Source of the DNA: Fragilariopsis cylindrus CCMP1102
Lineage: Eukaryota; Bacillariophyta; Bacillariophyceae; Bacillariales; Bacillariaceae
Direction of reading: 5' to 3'
Assembly: GCA_900095095.1 (NCBI GenBank)
Contig: FMBT01000298.1
Span: 186,001 to 250,000, forward strand
DNA length: 64,000 nucleotides
Shown here: in pieces, positions 12,868-62,196 of the stretch
Numbering within the stretch: the stretch's first letter is position 1
Layout: each line of letters starts with the position of its first letter
Notes under the pieces: model-generated
What the model saw: only the letters and a program-made list of their open reading frames with translations
Database searches by the model: none
What the model was told of the DNA's origin: nothing
Program-made: the position numbers and the translations under genes

Positions 12868-15314
12868 TCATACTTCTTCAATCTGAGAAGTCGTCTGGGA
12901 ATGATGGCCTGAACTTATTTCACTAATATTTCGAATACATTGCTGATCTGATGGTATTGTTGAAGCTTTAATGTCTCCAACCTCCTCCATCACAGCGGAA
13001 ATTGTTACTACATCAACGGCAGCATTTTCATTGTCATCTTTTCCAGCATTGACGTCATCGACATTGATAGCCCTTCCATTACCCTTGGTGTCGTCCTTAT
13101 CGTCATGTTCTGATTCTCGTCGACACAAATCAAGAATTTTTTCAAAGCAAACAAATTGTGATCGTATATATAATGAAAACTCTTGCGTACATCAGATTTA
13201 GTCATTGCCATGCCAAATGAGACGATTGCCTGTAAACTAAAAACATCAGACCAAGGTTATGCAATAAGCCCGATGAATTCTTGTCGGGCGAGTATCCCAT
13301 ATAGTACATTACCATACCAGGAAACCTGTATATGATTGCGATTGTGGGAGTGCGTGCGTGTACGTGTGCATGGTACATGGTGAATAAAGAGATAGAGTGA
13401 GAATGAGAATCAGTGTGATTTTTTCTTTTCATTGTGTGTGTGTGTGTTGTGTGTGTTTTGTGTGTGTAAAGGGACTTACCATATTAAAAAGAATACCATT
13501 ATAATCCTCAGGAAGTACATTGCCAGAATATTGAGACGACCACCTACTGTTCGATTATATGTGGCAGCTTCGACGGGTTTGTGTGGTGTTACCGTGGTGA
13601 TATCTCCATTGTCGTGGCCGTGGCTATTGTTGTTGTTGTTGGTCGCTGCGTGCTGTCTCCGTTATTACTAATGCCATTACCACCTGTAGTATTCTTACAT
13701 TGGAAGTAGCTTTGTCTCCTTTGCTCTTAGTGTTGTCAATATTACGGCTACTTGGTCCTTTTGACCAAAGTTTACGGCTGTGTTGACTATTTGTTCCTTG
13801 ACTACTCGGTACAGTAGAACTCGTTGGTATCTTTCTATTACCAATTTTAACTTGTCCAGGGGTAGTAACTTCTCTTTCCATATACAGAAACATATCCAAA
13901 GTAATGCTACGGTGGGAATAATAAATACGAATACATAAAATATCGGCACGGTAATGTGCTGCAAAGGGATTGCAACTGTTGCTCTTACGTATGTCGATGC
14001 GAAGTAATTTAATAACCAGAACCAAAGCATGGCAATTGTGATTGCGTATACAGTCACAACACCGAATTGGATAGAAGCTTTTTTGTAACTAGGTGGAGTA
14101 TATCTTTGACAATTTTTGGTTCGTCGTAGGAGAATCATAACCTCGTATGCAATAATAACATTCATATACATATTGACGGTAGCACATGCAGAAATCAAAG
14201 CATCATTTGCTGGTATCCAACCATTCTGATAGTTATCGGATACAATCCCTAACATAAATAGATTGTATATTAAATCCGGAATCGCCAAAAATACTAGATA
14301 CAGATTGTACGTCGAATAATCTGGTCCAGACGGTCGCCTGGCTCTGGAATTTTTTTTATTGGTTGGTTTATGCTTTTGATAGAGTGAAACACTAATGGTG
14401 TATATAATCACAAGGGACATCATCGATGCAATTAAGGCCAATGTAAATTGCGTCCATACTGTTGCTTTGAATGCTGATGAGTCGGTAACAAAACTTCCAT
14501 TTGATGTTGAATTATTATCTTGTTGTGTACTACAGCATTGATATTGTGCCGTATTGCCTAACACTGATGTAACTTGGGGGAATTGGTAAACGTCGTTGTA
14601 ACAATTCATTGCTTGCAAGTCTCCAAAAGTATTTTCAACAACACAATTCCCACAAAATATACTTGGATAACATTGTGGTGGTTGTTCTATTGCATCGTAT
14701 CCGCCACCACCACTACCACCAAGGAACATTGTAGGACTATGGTTATCATTGCCCATTGTATAGTTATCATCGCCCATTGCAGAGTTTGAATAATCATCAG
14801 TAAAATTACCATCATTGTTATATTCATCGCTATACGAGGACGGAGAATCTGCGTATGATGCTTGCGATCGCAGCGGTGGTGATAGATTATTATCACAACA
14901 CATATATCCTTCCGGTAAACCAGGGATGAGCGTCATGTCACGTCCGTACGGGTAAGAGGGAGTGTCAACTTCGCACATGGATGTAACATTCCAAGAATTT
15001 GATCGACTATTATCAATATCCTGTGGATTTTCACAATGACGTTCCGGTTGTATCATCGTCGACGTCGGATCTCCTTCAATAGAAGTAGTAGTGATATCAT
15101 CATCAGAAGGACAACAGGTGTAATACTTTAGCTTAGGATCGGCTGTAGTAGCAACATCATCATTCGCTACTTCTATTCCAACATAATTATCAGCACAAAT
15201 GTATGGGTATAATGTTCCCGGTCCCTGAGCATAACAATTGAATATAAGTGGATCGGTACTGGTAGGCATTAATCCCGTCGATAAGCATTTACTTTCATCA
15301 CATTGATCCGTCAT
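12868..15314 (-). CDS. Seven-transmembrane receptor-like protein with Cys-rich ectodomain (5 frame breaks)
   Basis: ATG at 15314. Exon 1 is 15314-13480 and exon 2 is 13325-12868, with a 154-nt GT-AG intron, phase 2. About 280 N-terminal residues form at least three Cys modules, each closing with a CC pair (YYTCCPS, GYMCCDN, YQCCSTQ), separated by low-complexity Asn/Asp/Ser. Then seven hydrophobic helices follow, beginning at FTLALIASMMSLVI, TYNLYLVFLAIPDL, MYMNVIIAYEVMIL, FGVVTVYAITIAML, IFYVFVFIIPTVAL, LAMYFLRIIMVFF and LQAIVSFGMAMTKSDV. The large cytoplasmic loop between TM5 and TM6 is Ser/Thr/Asn-rich. The frame must move back by one base near 13876, 13693, 13630, 13238 and 13139, each time as if one base were missing. 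GPCR-like proteins of this layout are common in diatoms; the ligand is unknown. Confidence 0.75.
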
Positions 15315-15999
15315 GGTTGTTTTATTTGTTGTGCTACTTCTTTTATTGAATGAATCTAGTTTATAGAGCGTCTAAAAATTAAATTGTTCTGGTTGGTTGT
15401 TAGACTGTCTGTATGGATGATCGAATATTGATCCTCTCTTCACTGTACTTCCTTGGCTATCGTGTTAAAGTGAGTGAATAATGATACAACATTGATAAAC
15501 ACATACATACTAGGCAGTATATTGAAGTTTGAAGTCTACAAACCGCATTCAGAGCATACTGTACAGTACTAGTAAAGGAGCAGTATGTTTGTTATGCATT
15601 TTCAGAACCCCGAACATTCTTGTCAATTGCTCACTTACATACAGGTACACAGTATCACATCGCTCATACAGTATTTTTAATGGCGTTTCTTTCAGGCAGT
15701 CGTGCATATTCAATATGATGGATCGAGTCTTGCGCGATTTAAATTGTTTTAGGGAAGGTCGAAAGGGTGAAGGGGATCATAAGAATTGTTGTGATTATTT
15801 TTAAGGGAACAATTGTAACAAAAAACATTTTCCTCTTCGGTTTTTGCTGTTTTGTCAAATAAGATTGTCAAAATTGAACAAACAAACAAATCGTGTTTAC
15901 AAAGCAATCAATAGATATGCTATTCTATTCTCTTATAGGAAGAAATTGAAGGATAGAAACATATCATCGTGCCGATCAAAGCTGACGTCATACATTGTA
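15315..15999. other. Divergent intergenic region (7TM receptor / K+ channel)
   Basis: About 685 bases holding both promoters, with CTGTACAGTACT at 15557 and related words near 15646 and 15667. The ORF at 15529-15804 lacks protein-like features. Confidence 0.55.
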
Positions 16000-18471
16000 A
16001 TGAGCGCCACCGAACAAGAAATGCCACAACAAGAAGGTTGTGGTGGAGAAAGCAATAACAATAACAATAACGATGGTGGTGGTGGTGGTGGTGATTCCTC
16101 GTCTGACAACTCAGTTATTATGCGGCCAACACCAAACACGCCAAATTCCAACACCAACAGTAACAGTAATACGCACAGTAGTATGGCCAGGAGGACAAAA
16201 CAACTATCGAACAGTGATAAATTAAGTTCAACTAGATCACTTAGAGCTGTTAATCAAGCTGCATTTGTACGTACGTGTACTAAGAATATATATTGAAAGC
16301 ATATATATATTACATATATACATATATTTGTAATCTCGTCGTATGGAGTTAGTGTTGTGTATTCTCAGTTCTTTTTTTAATGAAATTAACCTACTTGTTT
16401 TGTTCTATTTTACTTCTTATTTTTCTTCTTTAGATACGTAGTAACAATGAGGAAACTGCAATGTCACAAAGTGAACGAGCTAAGATCAAAGTGAAAAACT
16501 TTGTGAAGAAATTTACACAATCGTCGTCGGTGGCTGTTGCTGCTGCCGGTGAAATACACAATTCACGACATAATATTATCCCACCGGGACTACAACTAAA
16601 TGCGTTATCAAAAAAGAATAGTAGTAAAGGCAGTAATAATAATAATAATAATAATAAGTCAATAGGTGATGATGAACAAGATGATCCACAACAACAACAA
16701 CAACAACAACAAAAAGCACCACAATATAGATTAGAGGCATTTAAAAATTCACAAAGGAATGGATGTTTTTCATGGTGTAATATTGGTGGTGATAATGCCG
16801 GTACGAAATCAGATAACTTAACCAATCCCAATGAACAACTCGCACGGTCTTTGCACTGGATGTTTCGTTCCAGTTTTCTTGTTTTATTTGCTGTGATGTG
16901 TACTGTATTTTTTGGTTGGATTATCTTCTTTGCTGGATTGGTCCTTGCCGCGGGACGATATGATCACGAATGTGTTCGTGTCGGTAAGTTAACGTTAATT
17001 GGGGGGGGGGGGGGGGGGAGGAGGAGAAATAAAAGTTTTGTAAAACAAATAAAATCATTCTATCTATATTACTCACTTATTTCTGCTCCTTTAACTTTAT
17101 CGTGCTGTACCTACTTTTACCACTATATGATAATATTATAAAAATAACAATAAATCGAAAGGAGGTGAGCCCTTTGCGAATGCCACGAGTCAATTCGCTG
17201 ATGCATTCACACTCAGTTGGACCACCTTTTCTACGGTAAGTTTTAGTTTCATAAGACACGACAACTCACACACGCATATATATATATATATATGTATATA
17301 TATTACACACCCATAAAATGATACGAGGAGATCATACATCTCCAAACTTACAATATATATCGTTTTCTGTCTGCTCGTTTGTTTGGGACAGGTCGGATAC
17401 GGAAGTACTTACCCAGCCTTGAGTCACGAGAATGACGACCCAGCCAATTGCTTTTTCATCACTCCATCTGCTCTTTGGAATCGTTTATGGGAGTCCTCTA
17501 CGCTGGATTTTGTGGTGCTATCTTGTTTGGGAAAGTTTTGAGGATCCAGTCACACGCTCAGGTAATTTTCTCCGACCCTATCGTTGTTCGATATGGTAGT
17601 GGTATGCAGGAACACGTCGACGAAAGTGAACTCATCGGCGACAATGATGAGGATATTAACAAGAAAATTCCGTGTCCTGTTTTAGAATTTAGTATTACCA
17701 ACCGTCTATTTGGAGACCCTGGGGGTGAAATAATTGATGCAAGTCTCAATGTGGTTGCTAATGTAAATGCCCGCGATGTCGATCCAGTTTTAATTGATGC
17801 ATTGAACGTACGACGATCAAAGCATCTTCGAACGTATAGCTATGGAGGACAAGATGACAATAATACGTTAGATTCTTTATTGAATGGTTCCATTAGTGAT
17901 GATGAGGATGATGATACGGCAGGATCCGGTCGTGGATCATTAGATTCACGCAGTCACGACGACGACGAAAAATGTCGACAACGCCTACTATCTTCGATTC
18001 TCTTATTAAGCGTCAACACCTAGCAGTTGATGAAGATCCTTCTCAAGGTTGGTCAATAAAAGAATATTTTCTAAGATGACCATTGAAGCAGGAGAACATC
18101 CTTACTTCAAGCGAAGGTGGGTTGGTCGGCATATTCTCGACGAAGATTCTCCACTCGTCAAGCCAAGAGTGAAGCGAATGATCCGAAAAAACAAGGGATA
18201 TTGGCCAGAAAGCTTGAACGACTATGCGGCTGTCCGTGAAAGTATATTATTCAATCAAATTCTTGTTTCTCTAAATGGGGTCTCTAACCTAAGTGCTTCA
18301 GAGGTTTACGCTCAAAAAATCTATGACTTTGTCGATATGAATGTCGGTTATCAGTTTGTTAACACTTTATATAAGGACGATGATGGAGCTCTTAAAGTTG
18401 ACACGGATCTTATTAATGATGTACGGGAGCAACACGGAGGAGGCGGGGAACCTTTAATCCTAGGCGATTAG
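16000..18471 (+). CDS. Inward-rectifier (Kir-type) potassium channel subunit (3 frame breaks)
   Basis: Exons 16000-16266, 16434-16983, 17162-17235 and 17392-18471 give about 657 residues. After a 220-residue low-complexity N-terminus (Asn, Gln, Gly runs) come TM1 (SFLVLFAVMCTVFFGWIIFF) and a pore loop ending in TTFSTVGYGSTYP. The selectivity filter TVGYG is formed across the exon 3/exon 4 junction. TM2 (ESFMGVLYAGFCGAILFGK) and a Kir-like cytoplasmic immunoglobulin-fold domain follow (AQVIFSDPIVVRYG, CPVLEFSITNRL, HILDEDSPLVK, ILVSLNGVSNLSASEVYAQ). The frame steps back one base at the T-run 17452-17456, the A-run 17968-17972 and near 18073. Exon 3 has two possible acceptors three bases apart (17161 or 17164). 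Such channels set potassium conductance at the plasma or an internal membrane. Confidence 0.82.
17001..17018. repeat. Poly-G tract (18 bases) in K+ channel intron 2
   Basis: Eighteen consecutive G residues starting 17 bases after the GTAAG donor. Such a run can form G-quadruplex structure in the pre-mRNA and is hard to sequence. Confidence 0.9.
17275..17304. repeat. (AT)n microsatellite in K+ channel intron 3
   Basis: AT/TA dinucleotide tract between the pore-loop exon and the filter exon. Confidence 0.85.
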
Positions 18472-18969
18472 TTTTGAAATTTTATCAGTGGGTAGGTAGT
18501 ACCAGGGGTAATAACTATAGTATAATTCACAATTTCCCATTATTATATTGTCATATGGAGGAAAACCGAAACAAAAAAAAAAACGTTTTGAACTACGATT
18601 TACTAGAGTCAATACTGAATGGCTTCATGTTCTACAGATAAAAATATGTTATATTAGCATCATACATTGTTCCGATTGTCTTTTATCTTCTAAAATTGCA
18701 TTGCTGATTGATGTATAGCCATGATTTTAAAGTTTTAAAAAACTCGTAAAATTTGTTCTCGTAAAAATGCAGGATTTTTTTACTGATTGTGATAATAGCG
18801 CTCGCAACCGCACGTTTGGACGTACTTCATAATATTTATACTCTACGAGTACGCAAATAAACAGATCCCACAACATCATTATTTGAACATCACAAAACTT
18901 GTCAGTCAACGTGCTCAACATCTTTTAAAATAAGGAAGAGAAAGTTCCTTTGCTGAATAAACAGAAAAA
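18472..18969. other. Intergenic, no gene seen
   Basis: About 500 bases between two plus-strand genes, AT-rich, with a short A-run at 18571. The small minus-strand ORF at 18727-18921 has no recognisable features. Confidence 0.6.
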
Positions 18970-19719
18970 ATGAAATCGCTATCGTATAGTACCCTACTTT
19001 TGGACATGGATGGTGTCCTCGCAGAGGTGTCAGGATCGTACCGAGCCTCAATAGTCTCAACGTGTCACAAGTACGGAGCGAACTCAGTTACAGCTGACTT
19101 GATTGCCGATTGGAAAGCTAGAGGAGGTTGCAATAATGATTGGAAGCTTTCGCTTGATTTAATTAATGAGGATCCTAATGGGCAGAAGGGGTTGACTTTG
19201 GATCAAGTTACAGAGACATTTGAGGAATTTTATCAGGGGACCAAAGAGACGAGTGGCTTGTGTGAACTGGAAACTCTCATCCCTGACAAAAAAAATCTGG
19301 TGGAATTAAGAAAACGATCAAATAAAGTTGGAATTGTAACAGGGCGACCACTTAAAGATTGTGAAAAATTTCTTAAATTACACGGATTAACTGATCTTGT
19401 GGATTGTTGCGTATGTATGGAAGATGGCCCCGCCAAACCCGATCCTTTTCCTGTGTTAGAATGTTGCAGACGATTGGGAGTCGATCCATCTTCGTCTGTA
19501 GTTTTAATTGGGGATACACCCGATGATATTCGTGCCGCAGTTGCTGCAGGATGTAGTGGAGTGGGCGTTGCTACTCCAGAGGCTGTTGAAGAGCAAGTAA
19601 AGAAGGGAGAACCATTTGACAAATCGAAACTATGCCTCGCAATGCAGGACTGTGGAGTAGATACAATCCTCGAGCCTGGTTTTGATAAGCTTGTAGAATA
19701 TTTTCCGTCGAAGGTATAA
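18970..19719 (+). CDS. HAD-superfamily (subfamily IA) phosphatase-like hydrolase
   Basis: 249 residues, single exon, ATG at 18970. All four HAD motifs are present: motif I LLLDMDGVLAEV near residue 9 (nucleophile Asp and acid/base Asp two residues on), motif II IVTGR, motif III lysine in GPAKPDPF, and motif IV IGDTPDDIRAA. An alpha-helical cap of subfamily IA type lies between motifs I and II. The overall arrangement recalls the eukaryotic and plastid-linked HAD group that in some algae is fused to histidine-biosynthesis enzymes, but no fusion partner is present here. The substrate is not predictable from sequence; small sugar or organic phosphates are typical. No targeting peptide is apparent, so the cytosol is likely. 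Confidence 0.88.
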   Translation: MKSLSYSTLLLDMDGVLAEVSGSYRASIVSTCHKYGANSVTADLIADWKARGGCNNDWKLSLDLINEDPNGQKGLTLDQVTETFEEFYQGTKETSGLCELETLIPDKKNLVELRKRSNKVGIVTGRPLKDCEKFLKLHGLTDLVDCCVCMEDGPAKPDPFPVLECCRRLGVDPSSSVVLIGDTPDDIRAAVAAGCSGVGVATPEAVEEQVKKGEPFDKSKLCLAMQDCGVDTILEPGFDKLVEYFPSKV

Positions 19720-20937
19720 TAAACAAACATCATAATGGAATTCTAGTTTGTTGCTACTTCAGCGTACTAATCTTTACTTGCAAAGAATTTTATATTGCAA
19801 CCATCTGTTACTAATCCAAAAACCAACGAATACATTATTAGCAGAATAGCTGTGAATATTTCACTTGGATACAAATTAAACAACCAGCCATCTTATTTGA
19901 TGCTCGTTGGGCACAGCTCTGGGTAATAGCTTCTGTTTCATATATCTGTAAGCGGAATGGTCACTGCATAGGTGAATCTATACTGATGAGATTTGTATAA
20001 CTAAGATTGATATGATGACTGATATATGCTGCAGAAGCAATTTATTTTCAGAATATTTCTTGTTGGATCAATAGTAGCACACCCAAGTGATATATCATTG
20101 GCAATGTGAGATGAAAAAATCTGTATATGGGTGCTTAAACAACCTGCTGTGTAGCTGTGCTGTGTCAATAGCCTAGCTTTATTTTCCTGTATCTAATAAC
20201 CCTTTTTCTGTGAAACTAGACCAATTTTAACATCCTTATTTTCCTTCAACTTCAGTCATGAATCGTAGTTTGTTCATATCTCCTGTCCAACCAAGTGCTT
20301 TCCTCTTGTAATTTGCGCTTACTGTTGTGTATCACAGGACAATTAATTAGATGACACATGTGTAGCTATATAGCAGTAGCAAAGTGAATATTGAAATCCA
20401 TTTAAAAGTCTGCTTGCAACTCTACCTTGAGGTATTTTTTTCAGCATTGTTGGCGTGTTGAGCCATTCTCTTCATCTGACCCACAAAGAAAGAATTCAGA
20501 TCATTGTGATCTTTGGTTCTATCTCACTCTAAAGTGCCAAACCAAGCAGCTATTGCTTTGTTAACAACGTAATAACTTCTTGTTAGTGTTTCATAAGGGG
20601 GTTGCAATTATTTAAATATTTTGTACAAAATTTTATTCACGTATGAACGGAAGATGGTCTAGGGTATCGTCTAATAATATAAATAATGCTCTATCCATCG
20701 TCAAATGGAAATCATGCTCGCCAGACTCCCGTACAAAAAAAACCGTCACATCGCCAAATGTTTTTTAATAAAAAAACGTGTGCATTTTTTTCTCACAAAT
20801 AATGAGGTTGACGAAGCGCGGAATACTCTTTCAAAACTCAAAGTTGAATACACAAATAAAATAAGCCAAGCTTTCATATCAGATTTAAAGTTACCTACCG
20901 AATTGAAATAATATAATAAGAAGAGAGATCTCTGGGT
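19720..20937. other. Intergenic, no gene seen
   Basis: About 1.2 kb with no long ORF on either strand. The 68-codon ORF at 20705-20911 is Lys-rich and ends just before the next gene; I do not regard it as supported. No transposon terminal repeats or RNA genes were recognised. Confidence 0.55.
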
Positions 20938-22422
20938 ATGCGACATACATTCAGAACATTGCCTCCTCGAGACGCAATTGATGAAGCGGATAGCTCATTA
21001 AAAGCGACGAGGAAAAAGATCATGGAAAAAGACTTAATAAAAAAGAAAAAGACAACGGAGAAGTCACAACGATCAAGAAGTATATTTCGAACAGGGCCTC
21101 ACGATCATCCTTCTGTCGTCGATTCAAGACTACCGACTGCGACTGCTCGTTTCCCACTGAAGGAGGTTGCAGATTTACAAGGCCTACGGTATAATCCCGT
21201 GACAGCACATAGTGCAGATGTTGTATCGTCGTCAGCTAAAAGATATGACGAGAATGACAAAGATAAATTTGAACTTATGAATGTAAAAATTGTTATCTAT
21301 GGATTAACCGGTCTCTTGTGCGAAAATGGCCCGGAGAAGAAGCAAATATTTGGTGGCAAGAAGGAAGCTATTACCTCGGATGGAAGATTTGAACCTAAAG
21401 ATACCTCCGAGAAAGACTTAGGTCCAACAACTGCCGTCGTGTCATGCCAAAAAAATGGAGTCAGTAATCAGATTTCATTTGAAACGTTTTTACCAAGCGT
21501 ACCTTTACAACGTCCAACTGATTCTCGTTTAAACAAAGTTAGGTATGCTGCGAATTGGCCGTCGGAACAGTCAATCTTGAAATTACAACAAGGAGATGGA
21601 GCGATGGAAAGGTCTGCGTTCGAGATTACACGTTGTATGAAACATAACACATTTGTACCAGGAATGGGGGCAAGATCAAACTTTTGTCATGAGACTTTGG
21701 AGCTAGGAATCAACATTAGCAGAGGAACAGAACTTATTCGGTTAGGTACTGCTCTACTTGTTTTTAATGGCGAAGAAGAGGGAGAAGTCCTTATGAATAT
21801 ACCAACAACGCCTCTCGTGTTGAATAGCAAAAAATTGAAGAAGAAAAAGAACAAGTACGGATATTTTTCCAACGATACCTCGAGAAGGTACTGCTTGGAT
21901 GAAAACTCAATTCTCAAAGTTGGTGTACAGGTTATTCCTGAGGAAGCCATGCGTTTTGCTCGAGAGAAAGATATCAAAAAAACGAAGAAAGAAAATGAGA
22001 TGAATGATTTGCTTGAGCAAGAAAAGTTAAAAGACGCAATCCATAATATGGGTGATGGCAACATCGACCAAAGAGGAGGCATACAAATAAAGAGTCTCAC
22101 TGGTACTGGCGGAACATCCAACAGAGTCGTACCTATAACAAAAAAATCATCAAATTCGTTTTTTCCTGATATTTTTTGTGGAGGTATGGGGTTAACAACT
22201 TCCTGGGTACCAAACTGTTTCGGACGTAGCCAAACTGAGCCAGAGATGCCAGCTGAAATAACCACTAGCAATAATACTGACCAGATGGGAATACCAAACA
22301 TAGTTAGTTCGATTTCCGAGTCAACAGACGGATCAGGGATTCAAGGTAAGTAAAGTATAATATTATTTCTAATATTTTACCCTTTATCTATCATTAATTT
22401 TTGCCTAGAAACTTGGAGTTGA
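20938..22422 (+). CDS. C2-like beta-strand protein, family member 2 of 3 (copy A)
   Basis: Exon 1 is 20938-22345. A 63-nt intron follows (CAAG/GTAAGTAAAG ... TTTTTGCCTAG, phase 1), and a tiny terminal exon 22409-22422 ends the protein in ETWS. About 474 residues. The first 110 residues are basic. Then come the blocks shared with the 2862 and 22776 genes: VKIVIYGLTGLLCENG, TTAVVSCQKNGVSNQISF, TLELGINISRGTELIRLGTA and SILKVGVQVIP. The C-terminal part has a Cys-containing segment (DIFCGGMG...VPNCFG). I do not recognise a named domain; a C2-like fold is inferred from strand pattern. The gene faces copy B tail to tail across 350 bases. No frame breaks, unlike its neighbour. Confidence 0.65.
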
Positions 22423-22775
22423 ATCTGAACCGTTTAACTTCAAATTTTCCTTCGTTGTTATAAATTATACTAGCTTTGAGCTATGAGGGAACCGATTCTT
22501 TGTATGGAAGAGCGCAGTTGGTGAAGGGTAGACTCATTACGTACTACGTGTACTAAATTATTAACAATATAGGGACAAATAACATAATTTATATCTTGGT
22601 TTATTTACTTATACCTTCCATCATAGATAAATATGACCAGATGATTCTGTATCATTCTTATCATCTACTTGTTTTCTATCCATTAACTAACGATGAATTT
22701 TTGTGCGGAGAGGTGCCTTATAGGTCCTAAGTTGCTAGTATAGTTATCGGTTGTGTTTTTGTAGGTTTATTTGAT
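22423..22775. other. Convergent 3' region between C2-like copies A and B
   Basis: About 350 bases of AT-rich 3' flank shared by the two convergent relatives. Nothing further is seen. Confidence 0.6.
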
Positions 22776-24537
22776 CTAGTCCATCCCATCAAAGAGATCG
22801 TCCGTATCTACTCCGACCTTATCTGCATGACATTCGATAGTTCTTTGAGCAACATTGAATGTTCCTACTGGAACTTCTAATGCAACAACATCGTCATCAG
22901 TAGTTCCGTTAGTTTTTCTAGGTTTCTCTAGTCTATTTGGTGGTCTTCTTCGATACTTGTTGATCCGGATCTTGTTTCCGTTTCCTAATAATAGTTTTTT
23001 GGTTAGTACGGTCCAGCTATCTCCTTCTGTACTGCTATTATATGTTTCCAGTTCAGAATTGAAATTGTGCACTTGTATATCGTCGTCCGTCACTTGACTC
23101 GAATCAAACGAAAAGCTTCCGGGCAAGAGTCCCCGATACCGACTCTTCGAGTACATACTGTAGTCGAACTCCTCTCCACAACAGAGAGGAGCGCAAGACG
23201 AGGACCAAGAATTATCATAACCATTGTTAGTCATACCTGAAACAAATGACATCATATCATTGGATTCACTAATGGACACGTGTTCCACTGGAGCCTGATG
23301 AAGAAGTCTCTCATGTCTTCTACTAGGAGATATGTAGAAGTCTGTATCCAAAGAATGATCGATTTTGTCATTAGTCTGTGCATTCTCTTTCGGGTGTATG
23401 TGGAATCGGGAATCTACATCTCCTTCGTTTTCTGTTGCTGTTGCTGTTGGTCTTTTCCTCGCTACTTTTCGAGTTTTTGGACTAATTTGTGGCGGAGCCG
23501 CCCTCCCCGCATCAAATGTCCACTTTGTTGTATACGATGCCTCATCATTACCCCAAATTTCTGCACCATCCTGATCAGGGTATGCTGTTTAATGTCAGCC
23601 TTGACGCGTAACGTAGCATTAGATGCAAGTTTATATGTCAAGTCACCGTTGGTAAAGAACATCGTTGCTTTTTGCCGAAGATTCCCCGTTTTGTCTTTGT
23701 TCCAGTTGACGGTCCACTCACAGGATGGAGACGGAGGTCCATCTTTTGCTCATTTGTCTCCCTCCCATTAACTACTATACTGGCAATACCTAGCGGGATC
23801 CGCTCGTCTCCGCACTTTAATCCAACAAGTAATTTCACAACTTCGGGGACGTGCGTACTATTTGAACAAAGTGTGGAATCGTCGTTACTATCGTCACGTG
23901 CATCATATGTGTTACTTTCTTTTTCGAGTAGAAGAGAAAAATGTAGTCTTCTCCTCGACTTTGACTTAGATATTCCTCCCCACCTCTCTGATTCGCCCAT
24001 AAAATCTTCATCGTTTTTGCTTTTTCTTCAACATTTATAAGAAGCGGTTGGCTAAGAGCTGTGTATCTTCCAGAACTTGCAAGCTCAACGAAACCCACGG
24101 TGATTCGATTATTACTTGGCTGCTGCTTATTGCGTTTATCAATTTATCAATTTTCAGTCCAGTCATATATCCAATTGATAAACGAACATGAAAAGCAGTA
24201 CGTGAATTATATTCATGTTTCTGTCTTTGTTTTTGTTGTTGTTGCTGATGTTGGACTGGCCGTGGTACCTCTTGATAACATTTCCTTTCCCCTTCATCTA
24301 GTAGGGAATTATTTGGAGCGAGACTATCGTTGTTTCATCTACATCAAGAAATTGAACCTCGTTGAGATCTATCTGGGATTTAGACGAAAGTGTCGAATTA
24401 GAGTATTGTATCTTTTTATCAGTAGATGAGCGTAGTCTTTGCAACCTTCTTCGAATATTATCGCCGCGATATTTCCGAGACGAATCATTTGCTCTACTTT
24501 CTGTAGGGTCAGAACATACTTGCGATCCATCCACCAT
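22776..24537 (-). CDS. C2-like beta-strand protein, family member 3 of 3 (copy B, 5 frame breaks)
   Basis: ATG at 24537, stop at 22776, about 588 residues if five one-base losses are allowed for. The reading frame steps 0,1,2,0,1,2 at 24333-24335, 24135-24137, 24014-24018, 23669-23673 and 23551-23554, each a run of A or G on the coding strand that is one base too short. Across the breaks the protein keeps a natural composition and the family blocks in order: FHVRLSIGYMTGLKIDK, ITVGFVELASSGRYTALSQP, VVKLLVGLKCGDERIPLGIA and NATLRVKADIKQ. The tail holds a CAPLCCGEE segment and a basic stretch (INKYRRRPPNRLEKPRK). A pseudogene is possible but would be expected to show nonsense changes and indels of both signs. 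The function is unknown. Confidence 0.6.
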
Positions 24538-51259: not shown

Positions 51260-51288
51260 TGTTGTAAGTGTGTGTTTTAACTATTTGT

Positions 51289-51355
51289 GTTGTGTTGCGT
51301 TGCGTTGCGTTGTGTTGCGTTGTGTTGCGTTGCGTTGCGTTGCGTTGTGTTGTGT
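51289..51355. repeat. TTGCG/TTGTG pentanucleotide tandem repeat
   Basis: About 13 five-base units alternating TTGCG and TTGTG, 30 to 95 bases upstream of the ATG at 51259 (minus strand). The C/T variation within units is the only change. Confidence 0.9.
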
Positions 51356-53170
51356 GAGCTAGTGAGTGTGTGATTATTGTATGAGTTCGTTTTGTGATTG
51401 TGATCGTTTGTGTGTGTGACCAAAATATTGCATTGATGATGATAAGTTAGAGGTATGTTTAATAAAATTATGAGAGATTGCGGTATGTGTACCGGTATGT
51501 GTAATGTAGCTGTTTTGTGTTGTGCACGGTTCGCAACGGTCCTAATGTAACGGTAGGCGAAGGGTTCAAAAATTTATACGGCGTAATGTGCTTTTTAATT
51601 CTTCTTAATACCGGGTCTAGTACAATGACTCACGGGAAGCACGTAGAAGCACAAAATAATGCGCATCACGTCCAACCTTTTATAGAGAGAGATATTATAA
51701 GTAAACGTATGCAATATTTGACTTCTTTCCTCCTTCAAGCAAGACATGCCCCGAGCGATGAAAAATCAGCTGATATTGAATAGAGATGAGAACACTAAAT
51801 AAACGACCAGCATCGACACATGTTTCATATTTAAGACCTACAATAATATTACGTACAGTAATAGCTCCTATATAATTATTTTCACTTATACTTCAAACAA
51901 ATCAAAACAATTATTAATAGGGAACCGGCTGTGTCGTAGAAGAAATAGCTGTCAATAGCTAAACTACACTACGCGATTACCGGTATACTATTATTTAAAA
52001 GCTGCGGCTAGCGATTGTAATACTACGCGGCTAGTGTCATTTTTTAATGAGCGCTAGCGCTACAAACAAGAGAAGCGTACTTAGTGTACAAGTAGAGAAG
52101 AACCTTGGGTCGTGGTTACTCACCTCATACAACAATCGCGCTCAAAGGTATTGAAGAATCGTTTAACAAGCTCTACATACGTACAACCTTTCTTGCAGTA
52201 GTTCCCTCTTTTGCATGCGCGTAGTCAGTTATTAAAACTATTTCTGTACTGATTATTTCAATCACGAAGAATCGAATCTTGTTACCATCGCATTGCGTTA
52301 GAACTACGGAACTACAATGATATATGCAAAGGCCGATACTACTGTACATTGTACACAGAATGAATGACATACAATAGGAAGCATTTCCCATGGTGGTGCA
52401 GAATACCTTTTTAGTGGTGCATGTGTGCCAGCAACTACTTGCTTGTACCTGTACAAGTTCAAGGGCTAACGTTGACACGTTTTGACAGTCAGCTTAGCAC
52501 ACATTACAAAATAATAAACAACATCACTCAACAGTAATAAGAATTAACAATTTGGTTGCTGACTAATATAATGAATTTTTATGTCAGCTAGGAGAACTTT
52601 GTTTCATCAAATAGGACTTAGATGTCAGTAACACTAGCCTGACTATGACTATTGCTGGTGGTCAAGTCATGTCAATATTGACGACGGAGATTGGCCTGTA
52701 AGTAGTCCAATGTTCACAATAAACTTGGAACTTGGAACCAAGAATCAAAGTAGTAACCACTGTAATACTTCCAACAAAGACAAAAATTATGGTATTCCCT
52801 TCCATCTTGTGCCTTAACTCTCAATTGAACTGCTACTGGTGGATGGAAAGAAATTAGGTTGATTTCTATTATTTTGGTAAAAACTGATTATTTTTGAGTA
52901 GGGATGAATATTATGATGAGAATGAATGCTGCCACAAATAATCCAAAGCAGTTTTATATGATAATGATAACTATTCAAATTGATAAAGACCTATCAATTA
53001 GATAGTATAAGGTACTGTAGATTGTGTGCTTGCAACACCCAATCCAAAAGGCAACAAAATTAGCAATCATAAACTGAAGTATTGACAAGTATACTACACA
53101 TTATTATTATGTTGTGTTTTCACACCATATACCAAAAAATACTCTATACTATTTTATACTGCTGCGCGCA

Positions 53171-53312
53171 TTTTTAAGCAACCTGATATCCATCCTTGTA
53201 CATGAAATACATTTGAAAACAACAGCAACAACAATAACAATTTTAAAAGCAACCTGATATCCATACTTGTACATGAAATACATTTGAAAACAACAGCAAC
53301 AACAATAATAAC
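53171..53312. repeat. 71-bp tandem direct repeat, two copies
   Basis: Two adjacent copies with a 71-bp period share AAGCAACCTGATATCCAT, then a TTGTACATGAAATAC block and a CAACAGCAACAACAAT tail, with only a few differences. There is no coding potential. Confidence 0.85.
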
Positions 53313-53885
53313 AACACAACCAATCAAAAAAAGATCAACAACATATCTAGAATAAATCAGTGATACCAGAACCAACAATGTCGTAGGAGAAAACAAACAC
53401 AACAATAATAGGGGTTACCAATAATGCTACTGACATTACTCAGGCTCTACAGATAAAACCAACAGGCTACAGCAATAACTAAATACAATAGTAAAGGACA
53501 GTAATGCTCTATTTTTTTTTGCACCTCTTGAGTGATGAGTCAAAATTCAGCTCTGTTTTCAGTCGCACCTCAAGAGACAATTTAAATTCATTGGATCATA
53601 TAAATTCAATCAGACTATTATCACCATGTTGCTGTTGCTATTCTATTTCTAGCGCCCTATGCCAATGTTGGAGATACATGGAAAACAGTAGTTCCTCATT
53701 TTTTATTATTACTGTGGTGAAGCAATCAAATTTAATTCAATTCATGTTGTATCAGGAGTTCGCGCAATCAAAAATACATGAACAATACTTAGCTACTGGG
53801 ATTACCACACAGCTTTGTTTTCCATGCAATATTAACAGCTTGTTTTCTTATATATATAATATGTAAACTCTTGTTGTCATTGTTA

Positions 53886-53975
53886 TTGTTATTGCTGTTG
53901 CTGTTGCTGTTGCTGATGCTGATGATGCTGTTGCTGATGCTGATGCTGATGCTGTTGCTGTTGCTGATTGATGCT
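53886..53975. repeat. (TGC/TGA) trinucleotide array
   Basis: About 30 units of TGCTGT and TGCTGA. It would read as Gln/His/Ser/Ala-rich on the minus strand but lies in no gene I can support. Confidence 0.8.
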
Positions 53976-54473
53976 GTGTTTGATGGGGTACTTTATCATC
54001 AAGATATTGATCTGTGTGATACAAATATTGCATTCTTTGCTTTTGGGTTGGTATTTGAGAATTCAAACATCCTTTGTTTCATACCGATCTTTTGCTGTTG
54101 ATAATGAACATTTCTCTGGTGACTATCTCTGCTGATTATTACGTGATCTTTCTCCTCTTATTTTTCCCTCCAACATATTTCTTGTCTCTCTATCTTCTAC
54201 TTGCAAGTCTCTCTTGTTGATATCATTCCTGTCTCTCTTCTTATCCTTCTTATCTTGCATGCATATATTATTATTTTTGACAGTAGAAGTGTTTTCTTCT
54301 TTTTTTTCATCCTTCTAATCTACGACACACACGCTGCTGCCCATCTTTGCCAGTAGAGATTTGACCATTTAACTAGTCTGTTCCAACAATTTTGTTGTTG
54401 CTTTGGTTGGATTTGTAATGTCGTCATTAAATATGGTAGCTTTACATTCCAAACCTTTTGGGATCCCAATTAA

Positions 54474-54489
54474 CCCCCCCCCCCCCCCC
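54474..54489. repeat. Poly-C tract (16 bases)
   Basis: Sixteen consecutive C residues in the gene-free region. Confidence 0.9.
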
Positions 54490-55295
54490 TCTATCCTTCT
54501 TTCCTGGATGAGATTTTCTGAATGGAAACAAAGGACACAATCAAAAAGTATACTCATCATTGAAAGGATCAGATGAGATTAAAAAGAGGGGTTTCAAATC
54601 AACCACCACCAAGCATTTCTATGGATATCAAGATTTTGTCATACATTGAAATTTTCACATCAAAATAGTTAATTGTACAGTAATATATGCTGATTGGTGG
54701 TATTGAATTAACTTTACAAAGTTCCAAGAGCTTGCCAGATACCTGATACAAGTATATAACCAGAAGAAACATCTATCACCACACAATAATGAACATAATT
54801 GTTGAGTTGAAGTTGCTTCCAGTATCTAATTTTTATTGAGGAAGAAGGGAATATTATTTCACTAGACTAGCTACCCCACATCATAATGGCTAATAAGGCT
54901 GAATAAAGAACTTTTTTACTCTCCCGCAGACATAGAACTTTTACCACTCATTCATTATTGGTTGTGGATCTTACACATATTATTCCCAGATTCAATATTG
55001 CATTCCCAGTGAACCAATACACATCTAAAGTAAACAACAAACGCACAGTATGGCTTTGGTAGAGCATCAGCATTATATATTATAAGTAAAATTAACTCGT
55101 TATATTGATAGTTTTGAAAAAAGGACAGGCAAAGAATATTCACAAGAAATTTTATTATAAATTTTATTTGTTCTTATCTCGAACAAAACTACAACATGCA
55201 CCAATACCCTGGTCAATGTTTGTAGACCAATAATAGTAGTAGAAGTAGTAGTAATAACAATGACAACAACAATATCCCAGGACGGCAACAACTAT

Positions 55296-56644
55296 CTAAC
55301 CCACTAGTTCTGACGAGTGCTCTTTCCTTTCATCTTCGGTAGGACCATCAACTTCCAAGTTCATTCCACGAGGATTGAGCTGCGATTCTACCTGTCCAGT
55401 TTGAATCTGTACACTAGGAACAGGTTCAACATCGGACAAAATTTCCAAAAGCTGGTTCTTGGTCTTTTCAAGATACTCAGGCGAATTCAGATTTTCCATG
55501 TTGCTAACAGGAAGGTTGAGACGATAGTCTGGCCCAAAGTACTCAAAGTAATCGTTGAAGGGTAGCTCGTCCTTAACTTCTTCCCCCGTCAACACTGCTG
55601 TTTCGTACGTCCAACACCTTGGTACATTGCGGAGAGTATACCCCCACCTCCCAATACCAACATCGGTATACCAAAGCTGCGAACGTACCGGACGCAGTCT
55701 GCATGGCCCTTCACGGATAAATTGAAACACCCAAGACGATCTCCCGACAATGAATCTGCACCACATTGGAGGACAATTGCTCCCGGAGCAAACATTTCCA
55801 TGATTTTGCCAATCACGGGACGGAAGATACTTTTATACGACTTATCGTCCATACCATCATTCAAGGGAAAGTTGATGGAATAGTTCTTTCCATCTGCATG
55901 TCCAACATCATGAACGTCTCCAGTTCCAGGGAAGTATTCACCAAATTTATGAAATGAACACGTCATGACACGGTTTGTTGAGTAAAATGCCTCCTCGACA
56001 CCATCTCCGTGATGGATGTCGATATCGATGTAAAGAACACGTTCGTGTTTTTTAAGAAGTTCAAGAATTGCTAAAACACAATCATTGACGTAACAAAATC
56101 CAGATGCTTCTGCTTTCTTTGCATGATGTAGTCCTCCCGCCCAGTTAATGACGATATCGACCGCGTTATCATTCAACCGCGCCGCTCCACCGATCGATCC
56201 GGAAGTGTACAGTTGACAAAATTCAAATAATCCATCAAAGACGGGACAATCCTCTCCGACATTAAATCTTTGCAGTTGTCGGACATAATCTCCCATGTTG
56301 TCAGGAGTAATAACTTTCAGAAAATTGATGTAATCATCACTGTGGAAACGTGTCATTGCGGTAGGAGATACCAAACGAGGACGAAATACCTCCATCTTTC
56401 GGTACAGACCATAGTTGACAACCAAGTTGTGGGTCATACGGACACGATGAGGTTTCATTGGATGGCCTAAAAATCAGTCACATTATATCAATAAATATTC
56501 ATACGGTGTTAGAAGGATTGTAATAATTAACTATTAAAAAATTTCACTTCATTTTACTTTTGAACATGACTTACCTTGGCCATAATGGTAATTGCCAACC
56601 TCGGCATCATAAAAATACGAAACTCTTCTGTTCTCGGCGGTCAT
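55296..56644 (-). CDS. HDAC1: Class I histone deacetylase, RPD3/HDAC1 type (1 frame break)
   Basis: Exon 1 is 56644-56575 ([17 protein letters not shown]...), then a 108-nt intron, phase 1, and exon 2 is 56466-55296. About 413 residues. The catalytic core is unmistakable: [54 protein letters not shown] and [19 protein letters not shown], giving the zinc ligands and the His-His charge relay. It removes acetyl groups from histone lysines in nuclear repressor complexes. The frame breaks in the invariant loop [14 protein letters not shown]: the coding-strand G-run opposite 55641-55645 has five Gs where the protein needs six. Because this loop is nearly invariant in the family, the loss is far more likely a sequence error than a natural mutation. 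The C-terminal tail is short and acidic. Confidence 0.93.
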
Positions 56645-57306
56645 TTTGTCGCACAAAAGGAGACGCAACCAGCCGAATTATAAATAAAGGGATATAATAG
56701 ACTACTTCTCAAGCTCAGAGGATCGAATTTGAATGATACTTGTCTTCCGACGCCGAGATAATAATAATAATAATAATACTGTGCTGCAGCCAACGGCACA
56801 TCAAGCCATGGATGACACAAAATGTATCTACCGGTATGTAACGTTAGCTTTCTTGTACAGTACTTGTAGTGCGGAAAAAGTCTACGTACTATCTTGCTTG
56901 GCGCTCCCCCTTTCGCGCATAAATGTACAGTCTAAATGCTCCCTTGCGCGTATCATATGTACTAGTCATATGTACACACGATATCATCTTCATCTACGTA
57001 TGATCTTGCTACAAAGCTGCAGCATAATCATTTATTCTGATATTAGTATGATTTTCTAAAAACATTATTCTATCAGAAAAATGGAGAAAGAGATAATAGA
57101 ATGGTAAAAGTTTTAATTTTGGAGCAGACAATTCAACATTATATAATCTGTGTCATAAATCAGTTTCAATAAGTATTGAATTGTAACGGTATTATGAATA
57201 ACTAATAAAACATTAAACTAATAAAATATTAGATTGTTGCCTTCTTTTTAAAATGTACTTGCTTAGTGAAAATTCCGCCTTCTACACTGTGAATATCTTA
57301 GCTATC
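56645..57306. other. Intergenic, no gene seen
   Basis: About 660 bases upstream of HDAC and downstream of the S1 gene, with an ATA microsatellite at 56757-56777 and TGTACAGTACTTG at 56855. The ORF at 56733-57059 starts inside the microsatellite and has no recognisable features. Confidence 0.55.
56757..56777. repeat. (ATA)n microsatellite
   Basis: About seven ATA units in the HDAC upstream region. Confidence 0.85.
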
Positions 57307-59279
57307 CTAAGCTTCTGCCTTCGATCTTCTTTCAGCCCGTCGTGCAAGCTTCCGGGCTCTCTTTAGGTCAGCAGGCGCCATCATTGATGGATCTTATAAG
57401 TCTTCGTAGGTGCATATGCAGGAGCTCTGGGTGCGTATGCAGAGCTCCAATGACAACAGGCGCCTTCTTCTCAATAGAGACAACAGGATCCTTCTTCTGA
57501 ATAGATTGTTCAATATGATCAGTAGTTGTAGGTTTCGATTGAAAACGCGCCTCATTCTTCCTTGCTTTAAGCTTTCTCGAATCTGTTCTCGTTCTCCTTG
57601 CATCAATTGACTTACGTTCGTCTTCTGCTCTTGATTCAGACTGCAGACTGACAGTGATTCGTTTACGCCTTCGATCGATCTCAACGACTCGAACTGTTGC
57701 TACCTTGTCACCTTCTTTGAACATGGTTTCAGGAGATTCAACAAAGTCATCACGAAGACGAGATACATGACAGAATGCATCTGAATGACAACCAATATCA
57801 AAGAACACTCCAAATGGCTTTACGTATACAACCTCTGCAGGGTAGCTCGAACCAAGAGTATAATCCGTTACGGGCTTCCGACCAACACAATACCGTGTCT
57901 TTCCCTTTTCGGTAGTATCATCAGAAGGATTATTATTATCACTTTTGACTTTTTCTATAGCTTCTGTTTCTTCTATTTTCTTGGCTGTATCCTGTTGACC
58001 TTTCCGTCCACGTCCACGTTGACGCTTTTGTGGTTCGTCATTATCATCGTCAGAATCAGAATCGTCAGAATCATCGTCATCAGAATCATCATCGTCCTCC
58101 TTTACAGAAACATTAGCATCAGCAGCCTCTATACATTCAGGAATAGATTTTGCTTCGATGTCCTGTTCGTTATCTGTGACTGTAGAAGCAACGATTTTCT
58201 CCTTTTCTGCTCCTTTTTTCGTACTTATTTCGTCGCCTTTCTTATCAGCAATATTTTCCTTCCGTTGAAGAGATTCGCCTGCGTCATTTTTCGTATCCTC
58301 ATTATCCGATTTAGTCTTTGCTTTGTCGTTATTGTTGATCGGTTTGATCTCTACCTTTTTGGTTGATTTGATTTCTGCCTTTTTGATCGGCTTGATATCT
58401 ACCTTTTTGGTTGGTTTGATTTCTGCCTTTTTGATCGGCTTGATCTCTACCTTTTTGGTCGGTTTGATTTCTGCCTTTTTGATAGGTGTGATCTCTGCAT
58501 TATATTTCTTGTTACCATCATTAGTAATTGTTTCCTTCTGTCTATGAGATTCGCCTACATCATCCTTCCTTTCCTCGTTTGAGCTATCATCGTCGCTGCT
58601 GCTATCGACCGACGAATCAGAATCAGAATCGTCATCTGATTTAGTTTCTCCTTTGCATCTATCATGTCGATATTGTCATCCTCATCATCATCGTTGGTCG
58701 ATTTGATCTCTGCGTTATTCTTGTTGTTACTATTACACCCGGTGTGTTCGGACCAACGACGGCCATAGTAGCATCTGCATCTTCAACATCGACTTTTTTC
58801 GTTCTTGCAAATACACCTGGTGTGTCGGGCCAACGACGAACATAGCATCTGCACCGTCATCATCGGCATCGATTCTTTGCCGTTTGCTGTTATTTCTAAT
58901 TATTTCCTTCTTGTATTTAAAATCCTGCATCTCCTTTTTAATTGTTTCTACTGCCTGATCATTTTCTTTAGAAGCCTGTTCTAATTTTCTCTTAAGATGT
59001 TTCGGTTTCTTTACTTTCTTCTTTGCAGGAGTAGCATTGTTAGACTTAGTATTACTTCTTGCCTTGTTATTGTTATTATTGTTCTGTCATACTTATTGAA
59101 TCGGTTTCCAGTGGTATTACGTCCGTTTTGTTGCCGGGTAGAACTATCTTTCCGATTCGGACTAGTATATTTATTATCCCACTATTCTTGCCTTGATTCT
59201 TTTCTGGAGTGGCGTCTTTGGTAGTCTCTGCCAAACGTTTCAGTCGTCGACGTTCTTTTGCTCCTTCACCTCCTGCCAT
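57307..59279 (-). CDS. S1-domain RNA-binding protein with acidic and KKAEIKP repeats (7 frame breaks)
   Basis: ATG at 59279. About 659 residues if seven one-base losses are allowed for, near 59179, 59082, 58825, 58733, 58646, 57446 and 57393; the frames run 2,0,1,2,0,1,2,0. The C-terminal part is a clear S1 domain (LGSSYPAEVVYVKPFGVFFD ... GCHSDAFCHVSRLRDDF ... EGDKVATVRVVEIDRRRKRITVSL). Upstream are long Asp/Ser stretches, a GRGRKGQ basic patch, a six-unit eight-residue repeat (consensus I/T-KKAEIKP) and a pair of VVGPNTPGV repeats. The end reads MMAPADLKRARKLARRAERR, similar to basic tails of ribosome-associated proteins. One break is proven internally: the first VVGP-TPGV copy lacks one A that its sister copy has. 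RNA binding in the nucleus or nucleolus is inferred from the S1 domain and basic/acidic layout. Confidence 0.7.
58341..58490. repeat. 24-bp minisatellite encoding KKAEIKP / KKVEIKP units
   Basis: About six 24-base units alternating AAGGCAGAAATC and AAGGTAGAGATC types (minus strand), all in frame inside the S1-domain gene. The higher-order period is 48 bases. Confidence 0.85.
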
Positions 59280-59834
59280 GGTGCTGCTGTGTGTGGTTGC
59301 GAGTTACGAAGCAACTTAGATAAATTGGTACTCGTATTGAGGTAGTACAAGTAGTAGTAAGCTTCTAGTAGGCTTCAAATTCTCACTTCAATTGTTGCGG
59401 TAGATCTAATAACAACTTTTAAATAACATCTACAGATTTTTTTCTGTTTCATCTGTTTTGATTTTTTTGGTTTTTATTTTTTGATTGGTGGTCGTCTGGC
59501 CGTCGTCCACCTTTTCAAGAGTTACAAAACACAATTTTCTCTTTGTTTTCCTTATTTGCTTCCCTTACTGCTTGTGTGCTTGATGCATCATTCGATTTCC
59601 TTTCCAAATTTTCTTCTTCTTCTTCATTATTCATGTGATCATGTGATCATAGTTTATAGTTTTTTGCTGCTTGTTGTATTTTCTTCAGTGTGATTCGCTC
59701 ATTGTCCTTGTTTTCCTTTTTTCAGTTCATTCTTTTTCATTCTTTTCTGTTTCAGGTAAAATTTCCTTTTGATTTGTGTCCCAATTAGGGCAATTTAGTA
59801 CCTTGTCAACAGCCACTATAGCCATGCAATACCT

Positions 59835-59874
<40 letters not shown>

Positions 59875-60430
59875 CTGCACAATACTATGCAACACATCAA
59901 AGAATTGCTTGTGATTTAAGGTGCCAAGTAGAGTGGCACACAAAAACTAATTAATTTCTGTTGTCTGGGATCAGAGCGTAAAGAGAAACAAGTGTGTGTT
60001 TATTCGATATTGTAATAGTACTACCGGTAGCTAGGACTACATTTTTCTCAAAAATAATTTTATCTATCAATATTATTCATTTTATACTATTGGAAATAAG
60101 TCTTTCTTTCTTTTCCTTTCCAATTAATTTTCTTTCTTAGCCCATCGAAAAACGTGTATAGATGGGGAGGCACTATTTAATTATATATATACATTTACAA
60201 ACACAATGGATAACATAAACATATGAAATCGAAATGAGATAAAAATAAATAACGGCATCACGGTCGGGATTAATAATAACCCCTGAAGTGAAGGATGACT
60301 TGTGAGGAAGTAGGCAGTTGTATGCGCGTCATCGTTATTTCTCTCTATTCGCCGCGAACAGATAGGACATTTACTATATAGAATATAGTATATAGAAGAC
60401 AGATGACATAAATCAATTTTTGCTGGGATT
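59280..60430. other. Intergenic, no gene seen
   Basis: About 1.15 kb, T-rich on the plus strand (59440-59760), with an AT microsatellite at 59837-59870. No supported gene. Confidence 0.6.
59837..59870. repeat. (AT)n microsatellite
   Basis: About 17 AT units in the intergenic region downstream of the PH-domain gene. Confidence 0.9.
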
Positions 60431-62196
60431 TTATGAGAGAAATCTCGCATCATTATCATCGTCGTCATCATCTTCAGCGGATACTTGATTAGTAGTTGTA
60501 GTATTTTGGTTCGTCGGTGCAGATTGGTTTATGGAGACAACACCAGTATTTAATAAATCACCGGTTATGACCGTGTTCTTCAGTGAATGATTTATTGATT
60601 TACTGGTACCTGTAGATGGTTCAGTATATGGTCCATTCGAATAGTCGGGATTCATAATAACCACCTGATTTGCTGCATCAGCCGCGCAACCTAATTTGCG
60701 AATACTTCTAGCCCATCGTAGAACCTTGCTTGCAATCTGATTGATCGACGTGTTAGCTTTCTGCCAACGAGCGATCGGCGTGGATGTTGATGAGGATAGG
60801 ATGTTCATGTCCTTGTAAGGATTGTTCTCGTCCATTCCACCCTCCCAAGAATGGAATTCATCATCTTCGACAGCGTGTGTTCGTTGTCGGTTAGCTACAA
60901 CAACTACACGAGGAGTATTACTGATATCGCTATCCAATAGGTCGACAGATTGGTTTGGACGATGATTATTTTGTAAGTCTTTGGGCATAACTAGTTTCAC
61001 ATTTCCTTCTTGCATACGTGCCTCCTTGACACGATTAAGTTATAACCCAGTCCTTCATGGCAGCTTTAGAATCTGCTCGCAAATGGTACGGTCTTTTGGA
61101 AATATTGATTGTGAAACAGCATCCCTTTTCATCTCCATGATCGATAACGATCGATCCAACCTTGGAAAGATCTAGCGACGCTAACTGTTTCGTTCGTTTG
61201 CTGGATTTGAAATAGGTCAAACATTCTCCATCGGTTTCAAACCATCGAGTTTGCCATTTACCGTTGCGGTTTAGCTTTTGTAGGTACCCGTAGATCAATA
61301 CTCCTGCTATAATATCTTCTTCGTCGGCTGAATCTTTTCGGTTTGTGCCAGTACCGACAGTACGATTGTTCATAGTCTTTCCGTGGAAAAAATAAAATGG
61401 ACAACAAGTGAGATAAAATAAAATATAAGAAGAGAGAGTTGAAAGAACGAGGAACGATGTGATTTATTATAAATCAAATTTGACACTGAATTTTTCGATT
61501 CCTTTTCGATTCTACAGGTATAATTATAAAGCACTTACTTTTGTCGCATTCTTAATCAATTTACCAAAAGTTGATGTCGCAGCGGTGTTGTTATCAGATC
61601 TAGTATACCCCGTCGACACACCACCAGTAGTACTGTAGTATGATCTCGTGTATGGCCGATGAGGATGGTTCCGTTATATCATCATCAGAAATTGGATCGC
61701 TTCTCTGACGGTTTTGTTGATAGGTATTGTTAAGCGCCTGTTGTTGCAGTTGTAATTGTAGTTGCTGCTGTTGTTGCTGCTGATGTTGTTGTCGATCCGC
61801 CAATACTTGCCATTCATCTTGTCGAATTCCTGCTAACAACAAATCCCCCTGCTGTTGCTGTCCACCGTATTGAGGCATAACATCTGCTCCCATCGTGTCG
61901 ATATTTACTATTTGTTGTTGACTAGTATTATTGCTACTGGTATTGTTGGTATTGGTATTATTAGTGTGTGCGGATGCTGGAGATAAACTCAGTGGTGTAA
62001 TGGCTGTACGTACGGGAGAATGAGGATGTGTTGTCCCAGGAGTTATAGCACTTTGAACGGATTGGTTGCTGCAACTGTCTACGTTGTGTGTGTTATAGGA
62101 TGTGGAAGGTTGGACAGAGATATTATCCACTACATGTAGTACTGCCGCCACATTGCTGTTGTCCGCTGGGGCTGTCGTTGTCGCTGCTGTTTCCAT
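60431..62196 (-). CDS. Poly-Q and PH-domain protein, two exons (about 4 frame breaks)
   Basis: ATG at 62196. Exon 1 is 62196-61539 and exon 2 is 61376-60431, with a 162-nt GT-AG intron, phase 0. About 535 residues. Exon 1 is low complexity (Thr, Asn, Gln runs, including a stretch of Q about 9 long and LQLQLQQQ). Exon 2 opens with a PH domain: AGVLIYGYLQKLNRNGKWQT, then RWFETDGECLTYFKSSK, and the final helix AAMKDWVITLNRVKEARMQ. That helix is read only by adding one T and one A at 61035-61038. Near the exon 1 end the frame moves by two further same-sign steps (about 61655-61700) to reach TFGKLIKNATK before the donor. PH domains bind phosphoinositides or proteins at membranes; the rest is disordered with an acidic end (EDDDDDDNDARFLS). 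Confidence 0.7.

Follow-up and report, generated by a model that had tools for sequence, protein, structure and literature searches.

Clustered frame breaks in a Fragilariopsis cylindrus contig are probably consensus errors of the assembly

INTRODUCTION

Watson and Warr are said to have reported in 2019 that indel (insertion or deletion) consensus errors in long-read assemblies fragment genes. Excerpts of two later papers, PMC8445201 and PMC12007338, both citing Watson and Warr 2019, describe indels as the main error of long reads and as a cause of broken gene predictions. In the excerpted table of the Kastor study (PMC12007338), deletions outnumber insertions among the rows at hand and go together with homopolymers. 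Here we examine a window of 64,000 nucleotides from the diatom Fragilariopsis cylindrus CCMP1102 (contig FMBT01000298.1, here C182, positions 186001-250000, in an assembly of 67,884,144 bases and 818 contigs), in which a number of genes, among them a histone deacetylase (HDAC) gene and genes with S1 and PH domains, appear to be broken by steps in the reading frame. An earlier sequence-only reading had proposed about 29 clustered breaks of uniform polarity, placed mostly in homopolymers, in nine genes, and had attributed them to consensus deletion errors. Judged from sequence comparison, it is highly probable that the breaks are consensus errors of the assembly, likely derived from error-prone long reads and unevenly corrected, and that the genes are likely intact in the cell.

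The locus resembles the long-read consensus errors described in the excerpts of PMC12007338 in that frame breaks of otherwise conserved genes are dominated by indels. It also resembles the collapsed Trypanosoma brucei assembly, for which the excerpted part of PMC8445201 describes consensus indels that mimic broken genes. In that trypanosome, according to the same excerpts, allelic differences are partly causal, whereas the two contigs compared here run for more than 15 kb without a substitution.

RESULTS

The evidence that carries this reading comes from a second copy of part of the window. A DNA search of the assembly with positions 54900-59400 returned contig C301 (27,129 bases), which blastn aligns end to end with positions 46253-73388, counted from the start of the window:

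46253-64000, continuing to 73388 (unstranded): doubled part of C182, equal to C301 positions 1-27129 by blastn

The two copies differ by 19 substitutions and at 54 indel sites, of which 36 involve a single base; such an excess of indels over substitutions is what consensus indel error would produce. The longer copy is C182 at 29 of the indel sites and C301 at 25. All substitutions lie within 52236-62834. The copies have not diverged, because 46253-52235 and 62835-73388, more than 15 kb in all, hold none; 46253-50311 is free of any difference and 63878-73388 has two. Alleles or paralogs usually differ by substitutions more than by indels. C182 and C301 have the look of the same DNA put into consensus twice, with noise of the indel type, and not of two diverged alleles; they would in all likelihood represent one locus. 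Since C301 repeats this part end to end with so many fewer substitutions than indel sites, it can be used like a technical replicate.

C301 lies wholly inside C182 and looks redundant. Such redundancy is wider than C301, because two further pairs of contigs are also nearly identical: the sequences of C54 and C384 agree without exception over 3861 bases (L006, L007), and C10 and C35 share 99% identity across spans of 3945 versus 3914 bases. In the latter pair the histone-deacetylase match in one frame covers profile positions 33-285 on C10 and only 33-138 on C35, the open frames being 381 and 166 amino acids long.

The longer and the shorter version of each of the 54 indel sites were scored in both backgrounds with a coding model. 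The features of the doubled part that bear on the frame breaks are as follows:

58653-58825 (minus strand): S1 gene, three breaks of C182 at 58655, 58733 and 58824; the missing base is present in C301 at each
57481-57482 (minus strand): S1 gene, one base absent from C301 but not from C182; coding score 2.7 to 3.6 log units higher for the long version
58161-58162 (minus strand): S1 gene, base missing in C301 only, which breaks the C301 frame; long copy favoured by 6.4 log units
59209-59210 (minus strand): 5' part of the S1 gene, where C301 alone lacks a base; the score prefers the long version by 3.6 log units
59079-59190 (minus strand): S1 gene, step in both copies, one +1 or two -1, from the three-frame display and called as an extra base by the Viterbi model
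55641-55645 (minus strand): HDAC gene, break at a run of five G in C182 and C301; a single 2-nucleotide step against the C324 paralog
56053-56054 (minus strand): HDAC gene, base that C182 has and C301 lacks, hence a second HDAC break in C301 only, from the alignment of the copies and the coding score
61632-61665 (minus strand): PH gene, block with 16 more bases in C182 than in C301, the latter remaining open, a step of opposite sign, from the alignment of the copies and their frames
61770-61771 (minus strand): PH region, base lost from C301 alone; coding score better by 6.6 log units with the long version
61035-61039 (minus strand): end of the PH domain, step in both copies, +1 or -2; the Pfam PH match stops here
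51044-51108 (minus strand): 51259-49924 gene, step in both copies, either two -1 beside AAA and CCCCC or one +1, from the model and the open reading frames

Ten single-base sites proved to be coding. At the eight that are isolated the longer version was favoured every time, by margins between 2.7 and 6.6 log units; C301 was the shorter copy in five cases and C182 in three. A five-base difference at 50999 likewise favoured the longer copy (7.1), a three-base difference at 50312 hardly favoured either version (0.5), and there was no preference (0.0) at 67728, a single base close to a coding edge. The multi-base sites within 61632-61665 gave mixed scores, and the other indel sites are non-coding in the model and hence uninformative. 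The idea of consensus deletion errors is thus supported by DNA in both directions: at three breaks of C182 the base in question is there in C301, which has lost bases of its own at five other coding places. Of the eight steps that C182 shows in the doubled part, four are resolved by a C301 that keeps the frame, three of them as missing bases and one as an extra block.

The S1 gene provides the clearest case. Across its three C182 breaks C301 is a single frame of 319 amino acids, and the model places the same three steps from C182 alone, at 58655, 58737 and 58842. Position 58825, singled out by the sequence-only reading, is one of these breaks and has its base in C301. Within the same gene lies a tandem repeat (58335-58498) of about seven 24-base units, a unit length that is a multiple of three. 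Set against the C324 paralog, the HDAC gene has one step in C182, at 55645, and two in C301; its downstream piece taken alone has no Pfam match. The run of five G in HDAC and the AAA and CCCCC sites of the 51-kb gene would suit homopolymer shortening in both copies.

Beyond the doubled part the breaks were traced through paralogs and chains of open reading frames (ORFs):

13124-13844 (minus strand): 7TM gene, -1 steps at 13844, 13243 and 13124; alignment with either open-frame paralog (C181 or C447) shows a missing base at all three
17436-18067 (plus strand): K+ channel-like gene, three -1 steps, at 17436-17538, near 17997 and near 18052, two of the three also given by the model
22779-24611 (minus strand): gene taken as the second C2-like copy (B) of the sequence-only reading; an ORF chain with six -1 steps, two of the six also given by the Viterbi model
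32567-35453 (plus strand): EXO84 gene, introns at about 34199-34349 and 34661-34780, no break
43009-43063 (plus strand): AAA+ gene, one -1 step within this interval of ORF overlap

The assembly contains two paralogs of the 7TM gene (12868-15371), with about 60% identity over the longest segment that aligns, which makes the gene a member of a small receptor family. The open frames of the paralogs extend over 1078 codons (C181) and 972 codons (C447). As a control, the C447 protein aligned to C181 DNA without a frame step over 872 residues; in the reverse direction the C181 protein met eight steps on C447 DNA, every one within the initial 375 bases, which lie upstream of the C447 frame. A further step at 13603-13698 is ambiguous, being two missing bases by one paralog and one extra base by the other. 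The paralog alignment also places an intron at about 13479-13326, and the pair of missing-base and extra-base calls at its edges represents a codon split by the intron and was left out of the count. So were two more missing-base steps that the C181 paralog forces together with an intron at 14879-14683, where C447 gives gaps. In the C2-like gene, one Viterbi run read 24026-24098 as an intron, and the protein of the first C2-like copy (C2A) aligned to the region of copy B over 59 residues only, spanning no step. The EXO84 gene gave no step in the model, and its frame changes are accounted for by its two introns; the VPS51/EXO84 match in 32567-34216 is weak and falls under the curated Pfam cut-off.

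A DNA search of the assembly returned no second copy for 12500-20570, 22600-24900, 32000-35440 and 37860-46250, the four pieces queried separately (1-12500, 20570-22600, 24900-32000 and 35440-37860 lie outside this search). Larger queries (12500-25300 and 31000-46250) were dominated by dispersed repeats and did not return the window itself, so the smaller pieces were used. One such repeat, at 37700-37777 and about 77 bases long, has matches of 80-95% identity on other contigs, at least about 40 in number with 39 of the 165 candidates scored. On C306 and C154 it is found twice, in opposite orientations and separated by a few hundred bases; these pairs may be the ends of a small mobile element. 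A second dispersed repeat, at 20586-20663 and about 75 bases long, is 80-93% identical to at least nearly 40 places (39 of 81 candidates scored).

In total we counted 22 steps. Seventeen are -1 steps, resting on a paralog in four cases, on C301 in three and on ORF chains in ten, five of which were also found by the Viterbi model. Four, at 13.6, 51.1, 59.08 and 61.04 kb, are ambiguous between one +1 and two -1, and the block 61632-61665 has the opposite sign. How does this compare with the pattern proposed from the sequence alone? Our estimate of 22 to 26 breaks falls short of the earlier figure of about 29. Direct steps were found in eight of the nine genes named as broken (7TM, K+ channel-like, 22779-24611, AAA+, 51259-49924, HDAC, S1 and PH), EXO84 being the gene that drops out. 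The polarity is not uniform, given the opposite block and the ambiguous steps, though the skew is strong. Placement in homopolymers does not hold for the single-base differences between the copies, which fall in runs about as often as chance would have it. Clustering, by contrast with an even spread, is marked: 32 of the 54 bins of 500 bases in the overlap of C182 and C301 are empty, against 13.9 expected. The six genes described as intact are all long open frames and gave no model step (0 of 6), from a conservative model that missed the HDAC, 7TM and PH steps in the same run. One additional -1 step, at about 1182 (1158-1203) in the first gene and outside the range of the earlier reading, was given by the Viterbi models. 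The first ORF also contains a tandem repeat (149-486) of two 168-base units, again a multiple of three in length.

The number of steps depends on the model. A codon-usage Viterbi version with cheap introns let implausible introns take up nearly every step; the versions that took its place put a cost on intron length and are conservative. The final version gave 11 steps in the window (nine missing and two extra bases) and misses the HDAC, 7TM and PH steps; a codon-only version gave 14 (ten and four), and stricter costs gave 11 (seven and four). A comparison of deletion-only with insertion-only models over 21 stretches was informative for few of them. The deletion-only model scored higher for the K+ channel, C2-like, AAA+ and S1 genes, and slightly higher for the first gene and C2A, while the insertion-only model scored higher at 51 kb and slightly higher at 39-41 kb; the other 13 stretches, including HDAC, 7TM and PH, were ties. 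Applied to other contigs, the same model found a few frame steps of both kinds (for example L008, L016, L028, L030 and L050), and frame steps are not special to this window.

As regards gene content, short GT-AG introns can be read between the long ORFs of the window. Pfam matches support the names histone deacetylase, S1, PH, AAA, MMS19, DRE2 (CIAPIN1), adaptor medium subunit, helicase (AAA domains) and VDE (a violaxanthin de-epoxidase-type domain). The VDE match points to a photosynthetic organism. The names 7TM, K+ channel-like and C2-like are labels of the sequence-only reading, and the seven pieces that bear them, together with 49927-51108, had no Pfam match. Neither Rfam families nor tRNAs were matched in the window.

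DISCUSSION

Based on these observations, we propose that the assembly was probably built from error-prone long reads, in which noisy patches would have lost single bases and occasionally kept extra ones, and that correction was probably uneven. The patchiness of the errors may stem from such uneven correction or from low coverage. An origin as assembly artefact is well supported for the half of the doubled-part steps that C301 resolves. For the other breaks, whether common to both copies or situated beyond the doubled part, the same cause is likely by analogy.

Several observations weigh against this proposal. It is built on consensus sequences and no raw reads. The 110 ORFs on which the coding model was trained come from this genome and include those of this window; the splice weights of the model were set by hand, the donor and acceptor weights after inspection of the introns of the window. 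Half of the eight doubled-part steps (51.1 kb, HDAC 55645, 59.08 kb and 61.04 kb) are common to C301 and so beyond its reach as a test. At the remaining two coding single-base sites, 61638 and 61646, and in the surrounding block, the preference is for the shorter copy or for neither one. As the search returned no second copy for the 7TM, K+ channel, C2-like and AAA+ genes, their breaks rest on paralogs, ORF chains and analogy. Homopolymers, finally, do not behave as they might. Enrichment in runs is typical of consensus indel error, although not required by it, and it is not seen: 20 of the 36 single-base differences fall in runs of at least two (where 45% of bases lie) and 6 of the 36 in runs of at least three (17%). 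This differs from the excerpts of PMC12007338, where deletions track homopolymers, and it stands in contrast to the shared HDAC and 51-kb sites, which would suit homopolymer shortening.

An incomplete correction has also been considered in another form, in which short-read polishing fails where an assembly is doubled, an idea found in the excerpted text of PMC8812927. It is insufficient here: 46253-50311 and 63878-73388 are doubled and clean, and the broken genes at 12.9-20.5 and 22.6-24.9 kb are in pieces for which no second copy was found.

Which other explanations could account for the breaks? C182 and C301 could both be real, as alleles or as the products of a recent duplication, with separate frameshifts arising in each through allelic variation or pseudogene decay. 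C301 is indeed a separate contig, and redundant contigs of draft assemblies are often haplotigs. Against this stand the ratio of indel sites to substitutions and the long substitution-free parts of the overlap; moreover, HDAC and S1 would both have to be broken in both copies at different places, and each of the eight isolated coding differences is a base missing from one or the other copy. Pseudogene decay would bring nonsense changes, indels of both signs and a loss of constraint; the steps are 17 of one sign to one opposite and four ambiguous, and the protein is conserved across the HDAC and 7TM steps. We regard true alleles or duplicates as very improbable. It is less improbable, though still unlikely, that some of the steps only reflect introns that escaped recognition or ORFs joined in error, which would be compatible with consensus errors at the others. 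This is the case for EXO84 and for 7TM 13479-13326, it would fit the reading of 24026-24098 as an intron in one run, and the 11 steps of the final Viterbi model are far below 29. The HDAC break, the three S1 sites and 7TM 13243, however, join residue to residue and leave no room for an intron.

Programmed -1 ribosomal frameshifting, which would restore the frame at translation, agrees with the sign of most steps, and a -1 slip at HDAC 55641-55645 would yield conserved sequence. Among the 15 of the 22 steps searched for the canonical slippery heptamer X_XXY_YYZ (Y = A or T), none of the intervals had one in frame; the other two frames had three in all, which indicates that chance hits are few. 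In addition, C301 DNA has the extra base at the three S1 sites, and one step has the opposite sign. Insertional RNA editing, in which the missing bases would be added to transcripts, would likewise leave single bases missing from the DNA. Neither editing nor recoding explains how two DNA copies come to lack different bases, and the open-frame paralogs and the six long intact genes need no editing. Frameshifting is accordingly given almost no weight, and editing seems just as far-fetched. The base is absent from both copies at HDAC 55645 and present in C301 at the three S1 sites; that a few shared breaks such as 55641-55645 are truly genomic and bypassed by recoding without a canonical slippery site is likewise hardly credible.

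What are the implications of consensus errors for the annotation of this genome? The HDAC, S1, PH, 7TM and K+ channel-like genes are best taken as probably intact, rather than as pseudogenes, split genes or cases of recoding. Moreover, the contained contig C301 offers an internal control with which noisy patches of the assembly can be flagged. The finding is an ordinary one, and it warns against calling these genes broken.

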